This document shows, piece after piece, positions 16,722-27,792 of a DNA stretch of 30,856 nucleotides. Source of the stretch: a virus; the IMG/VR virus record IMGVR_UViG_3300025759_000431, positions 1 to 30,856 of that record; one strand, written 5' to 3'. The notes beneath the pieces are model-generated. The model saw only the letters and a list, made by a program, of their open reading frames with translations. It was not told where the DNA came from and searched no databases. The position numbers and the translations under genes are program-made. The stretch's first letter is position 1. The number at the start of each line of letters is the position of its first letter.

Positions 16722-17018
16722 TTATTCTCCCCAATGAAAATAAACATGAATATCAATTCGATTTGGAATTGTTTGTTTATATTCTTTTTCGGTAAATTCT
16801 TCTTGCTCGTAATCTGTTTCTGCTAAGAGAAGATCTGTCATTTCGCAGTTTAAATAATTAGCCATTGTTTTAACTATTGCAGCAGATGGATTTGGAACCT
16901 TTCCATTTTCATATTTAGAAAGCAATGATTGATCTAAGCCAAGACTCCTAGCCATTTCTAATTGTTTTACTTTTTGGATTTGTCTGAAATACTTTAGTCT
17001 TCTGTGATTTAATCTCAT
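16722..17018 (-). CDS. XRE/Cro-CI family HTH regulator (98 aa)
   Basis: A good Shine-Dalgarno AAAGGAG precedes the ATG. Residues about 10-65 form a lambda-repressor-type HTH: KVKQLEMARSLGLDQSLLSKYENGKVPNP, with the Q-L-x-MA helix and the S-LLSKYENG recognition helix, then MANYLNCEMTDLL. The C-terminal 30 residues are acidic and do not resemble a LexA-type peptidase, so this is a Cro-like or anti-repressor-sized regulator. It lies just past a strong terminator of the upstream genes, so it may have its own promoter. It is one candidate reader of the operator-like repeats in the leftward region. Confidence 0.8.
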   Translation of the reverse strand: MRLNHRRLKYFRQIQKVKQLEMARSLGLDQSLLSKYENGKVPNPSAAIVKTMANYLNCEMTDLLLAETDYEQEEFTEKEYKQTIPNRIDIHVYFHWGE

Positions 17019-17126: not shown

Positions 17127-17510
17127 TTAGAACGGAATGCTATCTTCTTGCAATGGGGAAGATGCAGATTGTTGACCTTGTTGTTTGTCGCTTATCTGAA
17201 AAGACATATAAGGTTTACCATCTTTCATGCGTCTCCACCCAGCAATTCGCATTGTGCTGTGAGTTGCTCCATTTGCTCCAACTGGGCCAGAGTAATCGGG
17301 TGCTGCATCATTGCCTTTTTTATCGTTGTCAAACATTACGGCCATCTTCTGATAGACCTCAACAATACCACGACCGTCTTTGGTCTGGTCTTTGACAAGA
17401 ACTACTTTTGAATCTACGCCCTCGACGTTGACCTTACCTTGCAAGATCATTTGCTGTGTTGGGAATGGTGTAAAGGCTGCGCCTCTGTTTGTATCGTCAT
17501 ATTCTGCCAT
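17127..17510 (-). CDS. Single-stranded DNA-binding-like protein with IPF tip (127 aa)
   Basis: The C-terminus ends EDSIPF, the acidic-aromatic tip by which SSB proteins call in partner enzymes, preceded by a Gln/Ser-rich linker. The body is beta-rich as for an OB fold (MILQGKVNVEG, VVLVKDQ, MRIAGWRRMKDGKPYMSFQISD). The block APDYSG followed by W-R-R-x-K-D-G-K-x-Y reminds me of DUF736 proteins, so it may be a divergent relative rather than a standard SSB. It lies next to the annealing protein and exonuclease, fitting a recombination role. Last gene before the terminator. Confidence 0.65.
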   Translation of the reverse strand: MAEYDDTNRGAAFTPFPTQQMILQGKVNVEGVDSKVVLVKDQTKDGRGIVEVYQKMAVMFDNDKKGNDAAPDYSGPVGANGATHSTMRIAGWRRMKDGKPYMSFQISDKQQGQQSASSPLQEDSIPF

Positions 17511-17534: not shown

Positions 17535-17984
17535 CTACCAGCCACTGCTCTTGTTACCACTGTCTTGATCGTACTTGTTGCCATCCATCTTACCTAAGAA
17601 GATGTCAGCATCACAGCCAATGTGCGACAGTGCTTTGGTTAGGCCATCAGTGATAGCCATCTTCGGTGCATCCTCAGCCATACGACCTTTAGTTGCATCA
17701 AAGAACTTACGGCACCCTGTGAAGGGGCCAAATGAATTTGCTGGGGTGCCATGCCAAACAGTAACATGCGCTAACACAGCGCTGTCTCCGTTGCTCACAG
17801 GCACAATCTCTGTTGTGTTGTGCCAACCCCAGCCTTCACCGACTGGCCCGAACTGCTCAGTCATCTTTTTGACTTGGTATTGTGGATCAATGGCGGTGAA
17901 TGATCGGCTGCCGAAGCTGACCTTCTTCAGATATTTGGGGTCTGAAGAGGCCAGCTTGTCCCAGATGTCTAGGTTATTAGTCAT
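17535..17984 (-). CDS. Single-strand annealing protein, Rad52/ERF-like (149 aa)
   Basis: Features I associate with phage annealing proteins: DPQYQVKKMTEQFGPVGEGWGW in the first third (about 33-54), and near the C-terminus ITDGLTKALSHIGCDADIFLGKMDGNKY (about 111-138), the helix and acidic turn common to ERF/Rad52-superfamily recombinases. Such proteins coat ssDNA and anneal complementary strands. The upstream gene is a lambda-type exonuclease and overlaps it by 8 bases: the usual two-part recombination system (exonuclease plus annealase). Start ATG follows a good GGAGAA sequence. Confidence 0.7.
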   Translation of the reverse strand: MTNNLDIWDKLASSDPKYLKKVSFGSRSFTAIDPQYQVKKMTEQFGPVGEGWGWHNTTEIVPVSNGDSAVLAHVTVWHGTPANSFGPFTGCRKFFDATKGRMAEDAPKMAITDGLTKALSHIGCDADIFLGKMDGNKYDQDSGNKSSGW

Positions 17985-18753
17985 TGTTGGTTCTCCTTGT
18001 TATGCGGAGTGATCCCCGCTTGTCTCGTTTGATTGTAAGGTAGTCGCAGTAAACTTCTCGTTCGTTGCTACCGACCATGTTTTTGAGATCTTTCTTTGCG
18101 TTCTCAAACACGCGGTTTTGTTCGTACCCACCGATGTAGGTAATTGCTGCGTCGATAAACTGGTTGTCTGTGCTGGCGTCCCGCTTGACCATGTTGTCCA
18201 CCTCAACCTTGTCAATGGAGATGTCTGGCGCTTGAATACCAATCGGCTCTTCGTCGCGTACAACGTAACCCCAGAAATCTGACACCACCGCCCACATAGA
18301 ATTGAAATACTTGTGGTTGTACGAGACATGTGCTGACTCCCATTTGTTATTACCAAAGATTACTGAGAAGTAAGCACCGTCTGCTTTAGCAAGATGACAG
18401 TATAGTTGTATCTGCGGCATGTAATATTCGATGACATCATCCATAGATTTATATGGATTAGTGTGCTTGGCCTCGACTATGAAGTCGCCCCACTTTGCAT
18501 CAATCATACCTTTGGCTGGCACAGTGCCAATCTTTTGTTTGTATTCATGCTGATGATTGGACAGTACGCAATCATGTTCAAGTTCAAACCATTCTAGGTT
18601 GAAGTCTTCAGTCCAGATGCCGAGTTGTACTGCAATATTGCGAAACAAGTCTTCTGGTTCTATGCGACCAGTCTTGATTTGCCATAGCTCAAGCCAGTCG
18701 CCATTCATAATTTTTACGCAGTCGCTGCCGCCTATGAAACCTTTACGTTCCAT
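17977..18753 (-). CDS. Lambda-exonuclease/YqaJ-family recombination nuclease (258 aa)
   Basis: Order of motifs is that of the YqaJ/lambda-exo family: IGGSD near the N-terminus (7-11), GMIDA with Asp85, VEAKH with Glu94 and Lys96 (the PD-(D/E)XK core), and YYMPQIQLY (110-118) with a conserved Gln. These enzymes resect double-stranded ends 5' to 3' to give ssDNA for the annealing protein encoded next. Ribosome site AAAGGAGAA. The short gap upstream contains a CTGCA-N4-TGCAG box, so expression may be controlled here separately from the genes before it. Confidence 0.82.
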   Translation of the reverse strand: MERKGFIGGSDCVKIMNGDWLELWQIKTGRIEPEDLFRNIAVQLGIWTEDFNLEWFELEHDCVLSNHQHEYKQKIGTVPAKGMIDAKWGDFIVEAKHTNPYKSMDDVIEYYMPQIQLYCHLAKADGAYFSVIFGNNKWESAHVSYNHKYFNSMWAVVSDFWGYVVRDEEPIGIQAPDISIDKVEVDNMVKRDASTDNQFIDAAITYIGGYEQNRVFENAKKDLKNMVGSNEREVYCDYLTIKRDKRGSLRITRRTNND

Positions 18754-18785
18754 TGAGTTCTCCTTTTATTATATGGGTTAGATTA

Positions 18786-18799
18786 CTGCATACTTGCAG
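18786..18799. promoter_or_regulatory. Palindromic box CTGCATACTTGCAG (operator-like, copy 1)
   Basis: A perfect 5+5 inverted repeat with 4-base centre, filling the 47-base gap upstream of the exonuclease gene. Two other copies of CTGCA-N4-TGCAG lie in other leftward gaps. A TATAAT (minus strand, 18768-18773) is downstream but so close to the ribosome site that a start there would cut into it, so I do not trust it as a -10 box. Confidence 0.55.
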
Positions 18800-18800
18800 C

Positions 18801-19058
18801 TTACTCAAGGTATTTTTTGAAGTCAGCGTGAGTAAGATCAGTTAGCTCAAGCAGCTTTTCTTTCTGCTTACCTTTGAGATAGCTCTCACCAACAGGCTCA
18901 CCGTTCTTGATGCGTTTAGCCATAATCTCATACTCATCGAGCACATAACTATACTTCTTGTATTCTCTAGCGTAGTGCGGTGAGCTTGTGGCTTTGTTGA
19001 TGTGTGCATCCCAGACGCTGCTGGCTACTGCATTACCTAGTGATTGTGGCTTTTTCAT
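18801..19058 (-). CDS. Small hypothetical protein (85 aa)
   Basis: Start set at the ATG of MKKPQSLGNAVASS, which follows TGGAGC; an upstream frame extension would overlap the previous gene much further. Mostly helical and charged, with Tyr-rich AREYKKYSYVLDEYEIM and a basic stretch after it. No recognised domain. It overlaps the end of the winged-helix gene by 26 bases and is followed by the operator-like box. Confidence 0.55.
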   Translation of the reverse strand: MKKPQSLGNAVASSVWDAHINKATSSPHYAREYKKYSYVLDEYEIMAKRIKNGEPVGESYLKGKQKEKLLELTDLTHADFKKYLE

Positions 19059-19338
19059 CGTAGCTCCAGATTGTAATTGACGTTCCCCACTTACCCATAG
19101 CTTTCTTACCTGAATCATGAATGATCCCTGCGTTCTTTAGCTCACTGATTCTGGGTTGGACTGAAATCTCTGGCCTATTAAGAAGCTGAGAGACTTGCTC
19201 ATTAGTAAGTTCACCATGCTCTTTGAATAGCTCAAGGACTTGGTAACGGATCGTTAGCTTGCCATCTTTATTAAAGTCAGCTGCTTGCTTACTGGATCTA
19301 TTCTGTTGGTATCCGATCTTGCTTTGGTTGTATGGCAT
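19033..19338 (-). CDS. Winged-helix DNA-binding protein (101 aa)
   Basis: Residues about 28-75 form a winged helix: IRYQVLELFKEHGELTNEQVSQLLNR, then EISVQPRISELKNAGIIHDSG, the layout helix-turn-helix followed by a wing, as in small MarR/LysR-like phage proteins. The N-terminus is polar and basic. It may bind DNA as a regulator or replication/recombination accessory factor. Start follows GGAGAACGC; it overlaps the resolvase-like gene by 41 bases. Confidence 0.7.
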   Translation of the reverse strand: MPYNQSKIGYQQNRSSKQAADFNKDGKLTIRYQVLELFKEHGELTNEQVSQLLNRPEISVQPRISELKNAGIIHDSGKKAMGKWGTSITIWSYDEKATITR

Positions 19339-19654
19339 TTGCGTTCTCCATAAGGGTTAAAAATTGTTCACCAGTCATTATGACTAATGTTTGCGGACTT
19401 CCCGTCCGTCTTTTATAGAAAGCAATGTCTCGCTTATCTAATACTGTGAATGGGCTAGGGAAGTTAGACTTGTCCCTATACTTTACTTCTCCCACCAGTT
19501 CTTGTCCGAAGAGTTCGAGCTTGATGTCGCCTGAATACTCTCCTCCCAAGCTGCCTGAGAGGGGTTGCCTTTTCGCTTTGATACCCGCTTTCGTGAGCCA
19601 ATCGACGAACCACTTTTCGTGGTAAGTTCCTTTGTTCTTGTTACGGTTTGCCAT
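19298..19654 (-). CDS. Hjc-like Holliday junction resolvase / PD-(D/E)XK nuclease (118 aa)
   Basis: The start has a perfect AGGAGG site. The pattern fits archaeal-type Hjc and related phage nucleases: KGTYHEKWFVDWL with Glu13, RQPLSGSLGG with Ser33, SGDIKLEL with Asp43, and LVGEVKYR with Glu56 and Lys58. These would form the metal site that cuts branched DNA. Together with the exonuclease, annealing protein and SSB-like protein it completes a recombination set that could resolve replication or packaging intermediates. The first 172 bases overlap another frame that encodes a zinc-ribbon protein. Confidence 0.75.
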   Translation of the reverse strand: MANRNKNKGTYHEKWFVDWLTKAGIKAKRQPLSGSLGGEYSGDIKLELFGQELVGEVKYRDKSNFPSPFTVLDKRDIAFYKRRTGSPQTLVIMTGEQFLTLMENANAIQPKQDRIPTE

Positions 19655-19803
19655 TTGTCCTCCTCATAGCAATGAAGGCAGACATACCAATGCTTCTCGT
19701 AAGTAGCTGCGCCATTGTTTTTAAGTATTGCAACGAACCAAGTGGTTGTTGTTTGGCATGCAATACAATCAATCGCGCTGCCTTTTTTTGACTTCGATGT
19801 CAT
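19483..19803 (-). CDS. Zinc-ribbon protein overlapping the resolvase gene (106 aa)
   Basis: Two CxxC pairs, Cys13-Cys16 (CIAC) and Cys42-Cys45 (CLHC), separated by a beta-rich segment with aromatic residues (TTTTWFVAIL, KHWYVCLHCY), form a plausible zinc ribbon. After about residue 55 the protein is Ser/Lys-rich and runs in a different frame over the resolvase gene. The ribbon part lies almost wholly before the resolvase start, so the tail may be a tolerated read-on. Ribosome site is weak. The ribbon is convincing; the length is not certain. Confidence 0.5.
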   Translation of the reverse strand: MTSKSKKGSAIDCIACQTTTTWFVAILKNNGAATYEKHWYVCLHCYEEDKWQTVTRTKELTTKSGSSIGSRKRVSKRKGNPSQAAWEESIQATSSSNSSDKNWWEK

Positions 19804-20026
19804 ACTCTAACGCATCCAACCAGCACATAAGCATGAACCCAGAAGGCAAACGCTTATGCGCTTCCCACTTATGGATGAGTGATACAGTACAGCCAATCTT
19901 ATGGGCTAATGCTTCTTGGCTTAAACTTAGCTCTAACCGAGCGTCGGTTAACATCTTGACCAGAAGCTCGTAGTCCTTCGGTATGCTGACGGGCTTGTTG
20001 TATCGAGTGAAGTTCTTCGATAGCAT
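19769..20026 (-). CDS. XRE-type HTH protein (85 aa)
   Basis: Residues about 20-65 contain KMLTDARLELSLSQEALAHKIGCTVSLIHKWEAHKRLPSGFML, a lambda-repressor-type HTH with SQEALAHKIG as the second helix and SLIHKWE as the recognition helix. The rest is a short helical C-terminus. It overlaps the preceding HTH gene by 128 bases; a start at 19954 (residue 25) would cut the overlap to 56 and keep most of the HTH. Ribosome sites are weak for both. It is a probable regulator of leftward or rightward genes. Confidence 0.65.
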   Translation of the reverse strand: MLSKNFTRYNKPVSIPKDYELLVKMLTDARLELSLSQEALAHKIGCTVSLIHKWEAHKRLPSGFMLMCWLDALEYDIEVKKRQRD

Positions 20027-20183
20027 TAATTACTTTCACTGCGGTATCATATCTTAGTTCTGTATCTCCATTAATTGAGCGATAGTAAGTTGATGTTGGT
20101 ACGCTTGCTCGTTTGAAAGAGGTGAGCAGCGAGATGTTTGTCTCGTCTGCTCTGTCTTGTAAGTATTTTAGATATGACTTCAT
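19899..20183 (-). CDS. Small HTH-like regulator directly behind an operator box (94 aa)
   Basis: Residues about 1-60: YLKYLQDRADETNISLLTSFKRASVPTSTYYRSINGDTELRYDTAVKVINAIEEL. This looks like an XRE-type HTH (helix, SFKRASVPTSTYYRSING, then a helix with DTAVKVINAIE) as in many phage Cro-like proteins. The C-terminal 30 residues are basic and low in structure and overlap the next gene. The ATG comes two bases after a CTGCA-N4-TGCAG palindrome, with no evident Shine-Dalgarno sequence, so the message may be leaderless. It is a good candidate for autoregulation. Confidence 0.65.
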   Translation of the reverse strand: MKSYLKYLQDRADETNISLLTSFKRASVPTSTYYRSINGDTELRYDTAVKVINAIEELHSIQQARQHTEGLRASGQDVNRRSVRAKFKPRSISP

Positions 20184-20184
20184 A

Positions 20185-20198
20185 CTGCACTAATGCAG
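20185..20198. promoter_or_regulatory. Palindromic box CTGCACTAATGCAG (operator-like, copy 2)
   Basis: Perfect 5+5 inverted repeat with 4-base centre. It occupies most of the 19-base gap between two genes and ends two bases before the ATG of the HTH gene, where a ribosome site would be expected. Confidence 0.55.
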
Positions 20199-20202
20199 CA
20201 AG

Positions 20203-20406
20203 TCAGTCATCGTTGTCAAGATCCTCTGGTTCTACCTCAATCTCACAGTCACCATTGCAGTTCCAACAAGTGTCTTTGTATTCTTCTTCATGGCCTACAT
20301 CGACATCGAAACCTTGCCTAATAAACCTAGTGTAAGTCAGAGTGCCATGACCATAGCACTCTGGGCATTCAATAAGGGATGTGGTCATCAACATCTGGTA
20401 TGTCAT
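20203..20406 (-). CDS. DnaJ-type zinc-ribbon protein (67 aa)
   Basis: Start at the ATG after GGGAGGAC. Two zinc-binding motifs: CPECYGHG (Cys14, Cys17) and CWNCNGDC (Cys47, Cys50), similar to the CxxCxGxG repeats of DnaJ. The C-terminus is acidic (VEPEDLDNDD). Such mini-ribbons are common in phage early regions; they may bind nucleic acid or a host protein. The DnaJ likeness is confined to the zinc sites and does not imply chaperone activity. Confidence 0.65.
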   Translation of the reverse strand: MTYQMLMTTSLIECPECYGHGTLTYTRFIRQGFDVDVGHEEEYKDTCWNCNGDCEIEVEPEDLDNDD

Positions 20407-20572
20407 GGTTGTCCTCCCAAGCTTTGGTTGCACGTTGCAGAAACTTCTCACGATTGAAACGTGGATTAGTTTTTTCTAGCTCATCAGCTATTGAGTGTAG
20501 GTGAGAGGGCCAACCTACCATTGGCCCAATCGTGTCTGCAATAAATTCATAGTGTTGTTTACTCATTCGCAT
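20369..20572 (-). CDS. Small phage protein with PRFNREKFLQRA motif (67 aa)
   Basis: Start chosen at the ATG in the TAATG overlap with the preceding stop (MRMSKQHYEFIAD). The sequence SKQHYEFIADTI, then IADELEKTNPRFNREKFLQRA, matches a small family seen often in phage and plasmid accessory regions, with the conserved NP-x-F-x-R-x-x-F-L element. Its function is unknown to me. The last 38 bases overlap the zinc-ribbon gene. Confidence 0.6.
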   Translation of the reverse strand: MRMSKQHYEFIADTIGPMVGWPSHLHSIADELEKTNPRFNREKFLQRATKAWEDNHDIPDVDDHIPY

Positions 20573-21405
20573 TATGCCATCTCCATCCATTGTTTTGATT
20601 TCATTGCGCTAGCAATCTGTAGCTCACGATTGTACTTAGCAATCTCAGGCTTGCGTAGATCCTGTGTGTGCGTAGCCCAGTAAGTAAGGCAGTTATACAA
20701 CGCCCACTTATTGGAGCCGAGGCTGCTGCGCTCATCACTCCAAATACTTAGCAAGTTTTCTAGTTGCTTTTCGTTGGTCTTGGTGACTGACTGCTGGCGT
20801 GTGAATGCTTTGCAGACAGTCTTCTTAAAAAAGTCTTCGATCTGTGGTTGCTCTAGTTTGGTGTGCATCCAGCTTTGCCAAACATCTTTGCGTGATTTGA
20901 AATGCTCAAGGCCATTGATTACCTTGGCTGCTGCACCTTCGACGTTGATCGATGCAGTGTGCTTGTATCTACTGCGCGCCACTGTGTCTGGTGTGGTGCA
21001 ACCATTGAGGCACCATAACCGTAAGCCATTGGCTTGCTGAGAGAAGGACCAAGACGCATCGTAGCTATTGAAAAAGCTAACTCGGAACTTAACGTAGTCA
21101 CCGACTGCTGGTTCAACAGTAAGATTATTAAATAGTATCTCACCTCTTAGCTTGCGACCGTCTTCAAGCACATCAACGCTGACTTCATAATCGTCTGATA
21201 GATCTGCTGACTTTACTCCGTCGAGTACTGAGTTGACTACATCATCGTGTGATACAATCTTGTAGCGTGATCCGTGTACGCCCAACACTTGATCGGTGTC
21301 GGTACGCACAACGGCTTGATGACCAGCAATAATATTGCCAAGCTGGTCATGGATTGGTTGTTGTTCAACTGGAAAGTTGAAGTCGTTCATTGAGAAATGT
21401 TTCAT
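20572..21405 (-). CDS. DUF932 family protein (277 aa)
   Basis: Start after AGAGGAGGT, an excellent ribosome site. Features of DUF932 phage/plasmid proteins: HQAVVRTDTDQVLGVHGSRYKIVSHDDVVNSV at about 28-60, LRGEILFNN, YVKFRVSFFNSYDASWSF, and a C-terminal helical part. These proteins are widespread next to recombination and replication genes of phages and plasmids; their biochemical role is not established. The strong site and position at the head of the operon suggest high early expression. Confidence 0.7.
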   Translation of the reverse strand: MKHFSMNDFNFPVEQQPIHDQLGNIIAGHQAVVRTDTDQVLGVHGSRYKIVSHDDVVNSVLDGVKSADLSDDYEVSVDVLEDGRKLRGEILFNNLTVEPAVGDYVKFRVSFFNSYDASWSFSQQANGLRLWCLNGCTTPDTVARSRYKHTASINVEGAAAKVINGLEHFKSRKDVWQSWMHTKLEQPQIEDFFKKTVCKAFTRQQSVTKTNEKQLENLLSIWSDERSSLGSNKWALYNCLTYWATHTQDLRKPEIAKYNRELQIASAMKSKQWMEMA

Positions 21406-21406
21406 G

Positions 21407-21595
21407 TTATACCTCCTCTAGTTTTGCATGTATTTGTGCAAAGCAATCTGCAATTTGTCTCATTCCGTGTGGTCGTTTGCAGTTATCAATTGCATTTGAG
21501 TTATCTTGAAAAAACTCATGGATTGCTTCGATGTCACCTTTGACAAACATTACAGACAAAGGCAGGTCTGCATAATCAATATAGTTAAGTCTCAT
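21407..21595 (-). CDS. Small hypothetical protein (62 aa)
   Basis: ATG preceded by CGGAGAAC. The product is a compact mixed-charge protein (MRLNYIDYADLPLSVMF, then DIEAIHEFFQDN, CKRPHGMRQIADCFAQIHAKLEEV). No domain recognised. Upstream of it lie a CTGCA-N4-TGCAG box and the second palindrome, so it is the first gene of a sub-operon with DUF932. Its 3' end carries the ribosome site of the DUF932 gene. Confidence 0.55.
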   Translation of the reverse strand: MRLNYIDYADLPLSVMFVKGDIEAIHEFFQDNSNAIDNCKRPHGMRQIADCFAQIHAKLEEV

Positions 21596-21618
21596 GTTAG
21601 TTCTCCGTTGGTTATGTC

Positions 21619-21632
21619 CTGCATTATTGCAG
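21619..21632. promoter_or_regulatory. Palindromic box CTGCATTATTGCAG (operator-like, copy 3)
   Basis: Perfect 5+5 inverted repeat, 13 of 14 bases equal to the reverse strand of the copy at 20185. It directly abuts the GTGAC palindrome to its right, the same arrangement as a degenerate copy (CTGGTGAAATGCAG, 22812-22825) beside the main palindrome. Confidence 0.55.
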
Positions 21633-21668
21633 TGACAATAGTTAAAGTCATTAGTTACGTTGCGTCAC
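21632..21668. promoter_or_regulatory. 37-bp imperfect palindrome, copy 2
   Basis: The right half (21652-21668; reverse strand GTGACGCAACGTAACTA) equals the right half of the main palindrome at 22847 in 15 of 17 positions. A weaker left half begins GTGAC at 21632, exactly 20 bases before, as in the main copy. The right half runs into the end of the upstream coding frame. Confidence 0.5.
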
Positions 21669-22670: not shown

Positions 22671-22826
22671 TGCGAACTGTTTTGCCTTGAAGGATTTGGA
22701 TCAGGCGTGTGCGGGGTGGCACGAGCCCCCACTCATAGGAGAATGGCGCTATGACGCATTATCTTACGAGCAAAACTGATGCTAGCCATGTAGTATGTAA
22801 TAGTCTGTCAACTGGTGAAATGCAGT

Positions 22827-22863
22827 GTGACGTAAGGTAATTAGTATAGTTACGTAACGTCAC
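22827..22863. promoter_or_regulatory. 37-bp imperfect palindrome between divergent TTGACA hexamers
   Basis: Left half GTGACGTAAGGTAATTA (22827-22843) and the reverse strand of the right half, GTGACGTTACGTAACTA (22847-22863), agree in 14 of 17 positions around a 3-base centre. It ends two bases before a rightward TTGACA. It looks like an operator for one of the encoded HTH proteins. Confidence 0.6.
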
Positions 22864-22952
22864 TATTGACAGCCACATAGGAAATAGTGTTAGCGTGGGG
22901 GGAGAGAGGGAGAGGGGGGCTAGCGAATGAGAAATAAGCCCCAATGTATAAA

Positions 22953-23979: not shown

Positions 23980-24226
23980 GACTGGTGGATTGACTGCTGC
24001 TGGTCGTGCTTATTTTAAGCGGAAGGAGGGCGCTAATTTAAAGCGTCAGTTGAAGACTGGTACTAATCCTCGTCGTGTTTCTTTTGCTGCTCGGTTTGCT
24101 GGAATGAAGGGTCCGATGAAGGATGAGAAGGGCCGTCCTACTAGAAAGGCGTTGGCTTTGAAGAAGTGGGGCTTTGGTTCTGTGGAAGCGGCTCGTAATT
24201 TTGCTAGGAGGCATAAGAAAAGCTGA
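23957..24226 (+). CDS. DUF6321-like basic protein (89 aa)
   Basis: Start at ATG of MRKEHKSKTGGLTAAGRAYFKRKEG; two GTG codons just upstream are alternatives. The central RVSFAARFAGMKGPMKDEKGRPTRKALALKKWGFG is the highly conserved core of a small phage family that I remember as DUF6321 (R-x-S-F-x-A-R followed by MKGPMKDEKGRPTRKALAL). The protein is strongly basic. Function is not known; a nucleic-acid-binding or virion role would fit the charge. Confidence 0.65.
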   Translation: MRKEHKSKTGGLTAAGRAYFKRKEGANLKRQLKTGTNPRRVSFAARFAGMKGPMKDEKGRPTRKALALKKWGFGSVEAARNFARRHKKS

Positions 24227-24408
24227 TGTGTTTTGGTGGTGGTGGCAAGAGTGCCGAACAGATTTATCAAGAGAAGAAGCCTGAGTTTGGGCCACTTCCT
24301 TCTCTTAGCATGACAAAGAAGAAACGCGAGGAGCAAGTTCTTAGCGATGTTCCGAAGATGCGCCGCGGAATGCAACAGCGTTCTTTGCTTGATATGGGGA
24401 AATACTAA
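24226..24408 (+). CDS. MCFGGG small protein 1 (60 aa)
   Basis: Starts in a TGATG overlap. The N-terminus MCFGGGGK has Cys at position 2 and a Gly run; the rest is basic and ends RRGMQQRSLLDMGKY. A second protein with the same MCFGGG start and a similar RRSLF end is encoded just before the portal. MC-G-G proteins of this size are common near portals in aquatic phages; their role is unknown to me. Confidence 0.6.
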   Translation: MCFGGGGKSAEQIYQEKKPEFGPLPSLSMTKKKREEQVLSDVPKMRRGMQQRSLLDMGKY

Positions 24409-27502: not shown

Positions 27503-27513
27503 TTTGTGCATTG
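27503..27513 (+). promoter_or_regulatory. Repeated leader motif TTTGTGCATTG, copy 3
   Basis: One base after the terminase stop and ending 49 bases before the ATG of the MCFGGG protein that heads the portal operon. Matches copy 1 over 12 bases (TTTGTGCATTGA). Confidence 0.55.
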
Positions 27514-27561
27514 AGTTTTGATCTCTTCTGTGCTTACGAAGGGAAAACAAAGGAGATTACC

Positions 27562-27792
27562 ATGTGTTTCGGCGGTGGCCCTAGTAGGAAAGAGAAAGAA
27601 GCAGCGGCAGAGCAACGTGTCGAAGCTGATATTGCAAAGCGCGAAGAAGTAGAGAAGCGCGCTTCACAAAAACGTGAAGACATTTCTGAAGCATTAGAGG
27701 GTCGTACTGCTCGTGCTGGTATGCGCGGCGGTCGAGGAAGACGTTCTTTGTTTAGAGCACCATCAGCAGGGTTCTTAGGTAGGTTTGACTAA
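27562..27792 (+). CDS. MCFGGG small protein 2, upstream of portal (76 aa)
   Basis: The ATG follows AAAGGAG; an upstream TTG in the same frame lies inside the repeated motif and is unlikely. Begins MCFGGGPSRKEKEAAAEQRVEADIAKREEVEKR, a Lys/Glu-rich helix, and ends RRSLFRAPSAGFLGRF. The N-terminus is shared with the gene at 24226. Small proteins with such Cys-Gly starts directly precede portals in several aquatic podoviruses; role unknown. Confidence 0.65.
   Translation: MCFGGGPSRKEKEAAAEQRVEADIAKREEVEKRASQKREDISEALEGRTARAGMRGGRGRRSLFRAPSAGFLGRFD

Follow-up and report, generated by a model that had tools for sequence, protein, structure and literature searches.

A shared palindrome at three gaps of a leftward phage operon and MKSYL, its probable helix-turn-helix regulator

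The window, a virus record of a marine phage analysed over its whole 30,856 bases, carries a leftward operon in which a perfect palindrome recurs. This raises the question of whether a single regulator controls an exonuclease, a helix-turn-helix (HTH) gene and a DUF932 group together, and which protein this would be.

Palindromes in the window and in related phages

The palindrome CTGCA-N4-TGCAG (CTGCANNNNTGCAG) is present in exactly three copies in the window, at 18786-18799, 20185-20198 and 21619-21632, and all of them fall in gaps of the leftward operon. In shuffled sequences 0.09 copies are expected, and none of 100 shuffles gave three. An earlier note on this DNA, which described three perfect copies placed in gaps of the operon and far fewer than one expected by chance, was right on each of these points. 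With up to two mismatches, 21 matches were found in the window versus 24 expected, which is the chance level, so that within the window only the three exact copies carry signal. The degenerate fourth copy proposed in the same note (22812-22825) is present as written, but it is not conserved: relatives read CTGCATTTTTCTAC, CTGATTATTCCAG and CTTCATTTTACCAG, among others, at this position, and it was rejected as a member of the set because of this variation. A CTGC-N6-GCAG sequence in the portal gene (29266 region) lies within coding sequence, recurs there in relatives, and was judged a coding coincidence.

More than 400 loci, including IMG/VR contigs, were gathered by scans with the exonuclease, DUF932, terminase and MKSYL proteins; some loci share a contig, so that counts of loci are not counts of independent phages. 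Non-redundant sets were defined as those with less than 85% identity. The relatives carry the arms, in the relaxed form CTGC-N6-GCAG, in the corresponding gaps, with a variable centre. Among the exact boxes in the collected loci, 387 out of 407 are located at one of the three sites, here named A, B and C. The outcome is thus opposite to the one by which the earlier note would have been refuted, namely relatives lacking the box or boxes lying inside genes. We conclude that the three palindromes are very probably DNA operators, judging from their sequence and placement.

The search of the operon DNA against the phage collection gave no match, and neither did the search with the MKSYL protein among 50,697 phage records at E up to 1. 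Two MKSYL homologs were found in Rhodobacterales/Rhodobacteraceae genome contigs, which hints at a host, or may reflect misbinned phage. Pelagibacter phage Hodr possesses a relative of the exonuclease, but neither a box nor a MKSYL homolog was seen in the stretch read. Our literature search found nothing direct on this phage group.

Predicted promoters and the genes behind them

Operator A (CTGCAAGTATGCAG on the minus strand, 18786..18799) is an exact match that recurs at its gap in relatives, upstream of the gene encoding a RecE/YqaJ-like exonuclease. It fills the 17-bp spacer of a predicted sigma70-type promoter on the minus strand (promoter A, 18780..18808), with the -35 element TTGAGT at 18808-18803 and the -10 element TAATCT at 18785-18780. 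In the relatives the layout of the site is TTGAnn, 3 nt, CTGC-N6-GCAG and TAnnnT, and in 51 non-redundant contexts the TTG is found in 46, the TA in 51, and the T at the sixth -10 position in 39. The first gene past operator A, on the minus strand, is the exonuclease (17977..18753; PHROG 434, E=3e-27, and Pfam YqaJ), and the same run includes a PHROG 7838 recombination gene (17535-17984) and a gene encoding a single-strand DNA binding protein (17127-17510), both also on the minus strand. Several relatives (L007, L008, L017, L026 and L032) possess an extra open frame, starting with MDDR, between promoter A and the exonuclease and hence behind the same operator.

Operator C (CTGCAATAATGCAG on the minus strand, 21619..21632), also an exact match, lies upstream of the DUF932 group. 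The predicted minus-strand promoter C (21611..21638) has a 16-bp spacer containing the operator, with TTGTCA (21638-21633) immediately before the box and CATAAC (21616-21611) two bases past it, and it is conserved in close relatives. Of 91 distinct loci, 61 showed an operator ahead of the DUF932 gene, and in the other 30 site C was not found. The genes past operator C (20203..21595, minus strand) encode a 62-aa protein (21407-21595), the DUF932 protein (20572-21405) and two small proteins. The DUF932 gene of the window has GAGGAGG; a count of Shine-Dalgarno sequences for DUF932 genes (0/23) was set aside, as the start positions from profile matches looked unreliable.

Operator B (CTGCATTAGTGCAG on the minus strand, 20185..20198) is the candidate autoregulatory site; a single base, not two as first described, separates it from the MKSYL start codon (20185 vs 20183); the absence of a Shine-Dalgarno sequence was confirmed. 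Promoter B would span 20183..20219 on the minus strand, with TTGACA at 20219-20214 as the -35 element, a weak -10-like CATTAG at 20195-20190 inside the operator, and +1 at or beside the A of the ATG (20183). The distance from the -35-like element to the ATG is 35-37 nt in every one of the 39 non-redundant contexts (37 with TTGAC, two with TTGCA), unlike the gap between box and ATG, which ranges from 1 to 10 nt across MKSYL contexts. This distance corresponds to the spacing expected if transcription starts at the A of the ATG. A Shine-Dalgarno-like sequence precedes the gene in one of 39 MKSYL contexts, versus 88 out of 88 for the exonuclease. The TTGAC mostly lies within the 3' end of the upstream gene, where the codons are always GAC and mostly GTT or CTT, far from background usage, with probabilities that are inexact because the contexts are related. 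The MKSYL mRNA is thus probably leaderless, and the leaderless translation suggested earlier finds strong comparative support in the nearly constant -35-to-ATG distance and the near absence of Shine-Dalgarno sequences.

The predicted first leftward promoter (CTGTCA-18-TATACT, 22843..22872, minus strand) lacks the CTGCA box. Its spacer harbours a second palindrome, GTGACGTTACGTAAC (22849-22863), with a further copy, GTGACGCAACGTAAC, at 21654-21668; the consensus, near GTGACGTNACGTCAC, has six matches with up to three mismatches versus 0.3 expected. Among the relatives, the first leftward promoter has this palindrome in its spacer; frequent further positions are some 36 nt ahead of box C or 30 nt ahead of box A. 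Most phages lacking MKSYL carry it just 5' of the exonuclease (L366-L386), the place of box A in others, as if control had been handed over to another regulator. Unlike the window, loci L308-L312 have a CTGC-N6-GCAG box close to their first leftward promoter. Two predicted proteins flanking the terminase (24226-24408 and 27511-27792) share the start MCFGGG, at an internal start in the second.

MKSYL and its co-variation with the boxes

The MKSYL gene, named for the first residues of its product, is located at 19899..20183 on the minus strand and encodes a protein of 94 aa with a predicted lambda-repressor-like HTH. The AlphaFold2 model (mean pLDDT 86.6) contains helices 4-15, 19-25, 30-37, 45-73 and 80-86; in this model helices 19-25 and 30-37 form the HTH, with 30-37 as the recognition helix. 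Fold matches in the PDB were lambda-repressor-like and LacI-type HTH domains, including those of P22 c2, DdrO and PurR, and were weak (E about 0.5 or above). Pfam, PHROGs and NCBIfam gave no confident match. Scores against Pfam LacI (best E 0.0082; 13.9 bits for the window protein vs 27) and HTH_3 (E 0.018, in two out of 18 members) are below the curated cut-offs. The MKSYL gene shares up to 128 bases, read in another frame, with the next gene, an HTH_3 gene at 19769-20026; the start of the latter may be later, near 19954.

The search for MKSYL homologs revealed 261 ORF hits that make up 140 distinct contexts, and in almost every case a box precedes the ATG by 1-10 nt. Two small MKSYL groups depart from this: one of their half-sites has become CTCC, and site A is normal in them where it was covered. 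The autoregulation proposed for the HTH gene is strongly supported by this comparison. In an added set, all 36 covered loci with MKSYL possess the exonuclease box (an exact one in 34, one outside the filter in L410 and a variant in L401). None of the 20 covered loci without MKSYL possesses it, though the HTH gene 19769-20026 is retained in them. MKSYL is, on this pattern, very probably the regulator acting at the boxes, and the comparison strongly supports a shared operator for the exonuclease, the HTH gene and the DUF932 group.

Protein and sites also change together. One clade (support 100/100) carries TTGC-N6-GCAA at site B, and mostly also at sites A and C; part of this clade has the hybrid TTGC-N6-GCAG at A or C (L288-L293, L277, L291 and L190). 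The class of the regulator and the class of site A agree without any conflict (178 C/C and 20 T/T loci). Regulators of the C class, 94 of the 112 distinct proteins, possess P29, T/S30, S31, Y34 and R44, and the 18 of the T class possess S29 (one C29), H/S/Y30, T31, W34 and K44. A separate clade on a long branch (support 98/90), formed by L401 and L436, also has TTGC-N6-GCAA at site B, together with TTGC-N6-GCAA (L436) or TCGC-N6-GCAA (L401) at site A, and its regulators have A29, V30 and K44. Changes at positions 29, 30 and 44 are therefore common to both switches. As read from these comparisons, the move to TTGC-N6-GCAA took place twice independently, in both lineages along with changes in the region of the recognition helix. 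Exceptions are L129, L133 and L135, with a C-type regulator and site B, yet with TTGCAATRATGCAA at the position of site C, where the -35 is altered too; in L133 and L135 site A is also of the C type. Many proteins differ between the phages of the first switch and the others, so that co-variation alone cannot single out one residue.

The proposed circuit, its alternatives and known systems

We consider it highly likely that the palindromes are the operators of an autoregulating, Cro-like MKSYL repressor that acts at three promoters and damps lytic transcription. MKSYL would be a small HTH repressor binding the palindromes, presumably as a dimer, and would be made from its own promoter, probably on a leaderless mRNA. 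Operator B covers the -10/start region, and its occupancy would limit the synthesis of MKSYL itself. Operators A and C lie within -35/-10 spacers, and there MKSYL would block RNA polymerase and turn down the DUF932 group and the group for exonuclease, recombination and single-strand DNA binding. The operon would then comprise a first leftward promoter without box, followed by three promoters under control of the box, the repressor's own among them. Operators within the spacer or over the -10/start normally block polymerase, and from the position of the sites we infer repression as the sign of regulation. The likely role would be to damp leftward transcription in the manner of Cro, presumably in the course of lytic growth, and not one in lysogeny. 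The Phage_integrase search gave no match in 18 records, some of them possibly incomplete, and this makes lytic damping the most likely role.

Binding of the boxes by a host factor or by one of the other two HTH proteins named as candidates in the earlier note is very unlikely. Both of the latter are clear HTH_3 proteins, and 19769-20026 comes directly after MKSYL. However, this gene is missing from six box-bearing phages in which the stretch is covered (L056, L072, L077, L080, L102 and L109) and is kept in phages without MKSYL and without box, and the gene at 16722-17018 was found in nine of 263 loci, not all of which extend that far; neither fits as the required regulator, and 19899-20183 is the candidate that does. 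A host factor would leave unexplained the loss of the box alongside MKSYL, and likewise the switch to TTGC. Even less probable is that the palindromes act as RNA hairpins in translation control or processing. A stem of 5 bp with a 4-nt loop could form in all three copies of the window, and site B touches the start codon. Nevertheless, positions 5 and 10, which would form the innermost pair, are unpaired in 18 of 51 (A), 10 of 40 (B) and 8 of 21 (C) non-redundant sites. This fits a DNA operator in which half-sites of 4 bp flank an AT-rich centre (82-83% A+T), and does not fit an RNA stem. Moreover, site A lies between -35 and -10 and is hence untranscribed by its own promoter, no Rfam match was found, and the switch tracks the HTH recognition region.

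That MKSYL activates the promoters, or acts on them with mixed sign, is unlikely as well, if less so. Poor -10 elements (TAGTCT) in many relatives could suggest a need for help, but the sites lie in the -35/-10 spacer or over the -10/start, and the spacers are of 16-17 bp, whereas MerR-type activated promoters have spacers of 19-20 bp. We regard as equally improbable a CI-like role of MKSYL in maintaining a lysogenic or plasmid-like state. Like a prophage repressor, MKSYL appears to govern its own gene and several promoters at once; however, the 18 records without a Phage_integrase match include long contigs of relatives, and the first leftward promoter has no box.

The repressor reading offers a candidate function for a protein family that Pfam, PHROGs and NCBIfam do not place with confidence, and lets a phage operon without annotation be read as a three-promoter circuit open to testing. 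Protein and sites switched in concert on two independent occasions, and hybrid sites survive; this amounts to a natural experiment on how the specificity of a repressor and of its several operators shifts jointly. More tentatively, and less likely than not, uncultured marine phages might possess in MKSYL a new family of autorepressors made from leaderless mRNA, whose operator specificity switches repeatedly in nature through the outer base pair and a few residues of the recognition region, with the TTGC-N6-GCAG hybrids as preserved intermediates and competition among co-infecting lytic phages as a possible driver.

Similar to Cro and CI of lambda, 434 and P22, MKSYL has a predicted lambda-repressor-like HTH and short palindromes that overlap predicted promoters, with an AT-rich centre. 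The operators of 434 measure 14 bp and have an AT-rich, weakly specified centre, and lambda cI is leaderless when transcribed from PRM. However, the MKSYL operators are single and dispersed, not arranged in OR/OL clusters, and the protein lacks a confident family match. The HTH also bears a weak likeness to the LacI-family headpiece (best E 0.0082 in Pfam and 0.03 in the PDB), with an Arg at position six of the recognition helix, but all scores are below cut-off and MKSYL has no ligand domain. A comparable system is Cro of the telomere phage PY54 (with N15 and phiKO2), a small HTH lytic repressor with a 16-bp palindrome, whose site differs from those of N15 and phiKO2 only in the outermost base pairs, which decide specificity, and in which cI and cro are expressed from leaderless mRNAs (PMC4488713). 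PY54 Cro has a single binding site and is believed to leave its own gene unrepressed, whereas the MKSYL phages possess three operators at three promoters, including that of MKSYL, and no integrase was found in the records searched. In Cluster A mycobacteriophages the repressor and its dispersed sites diverge together and influence specificity (PMC6550527), a coupling like that of MKSYL and its boxes. These are temperate phages with a different protein and with asymmetric stoperators that occur genome-wide and stop elongation (PMC9283540), whereas the MKSYL sites are palindromic.
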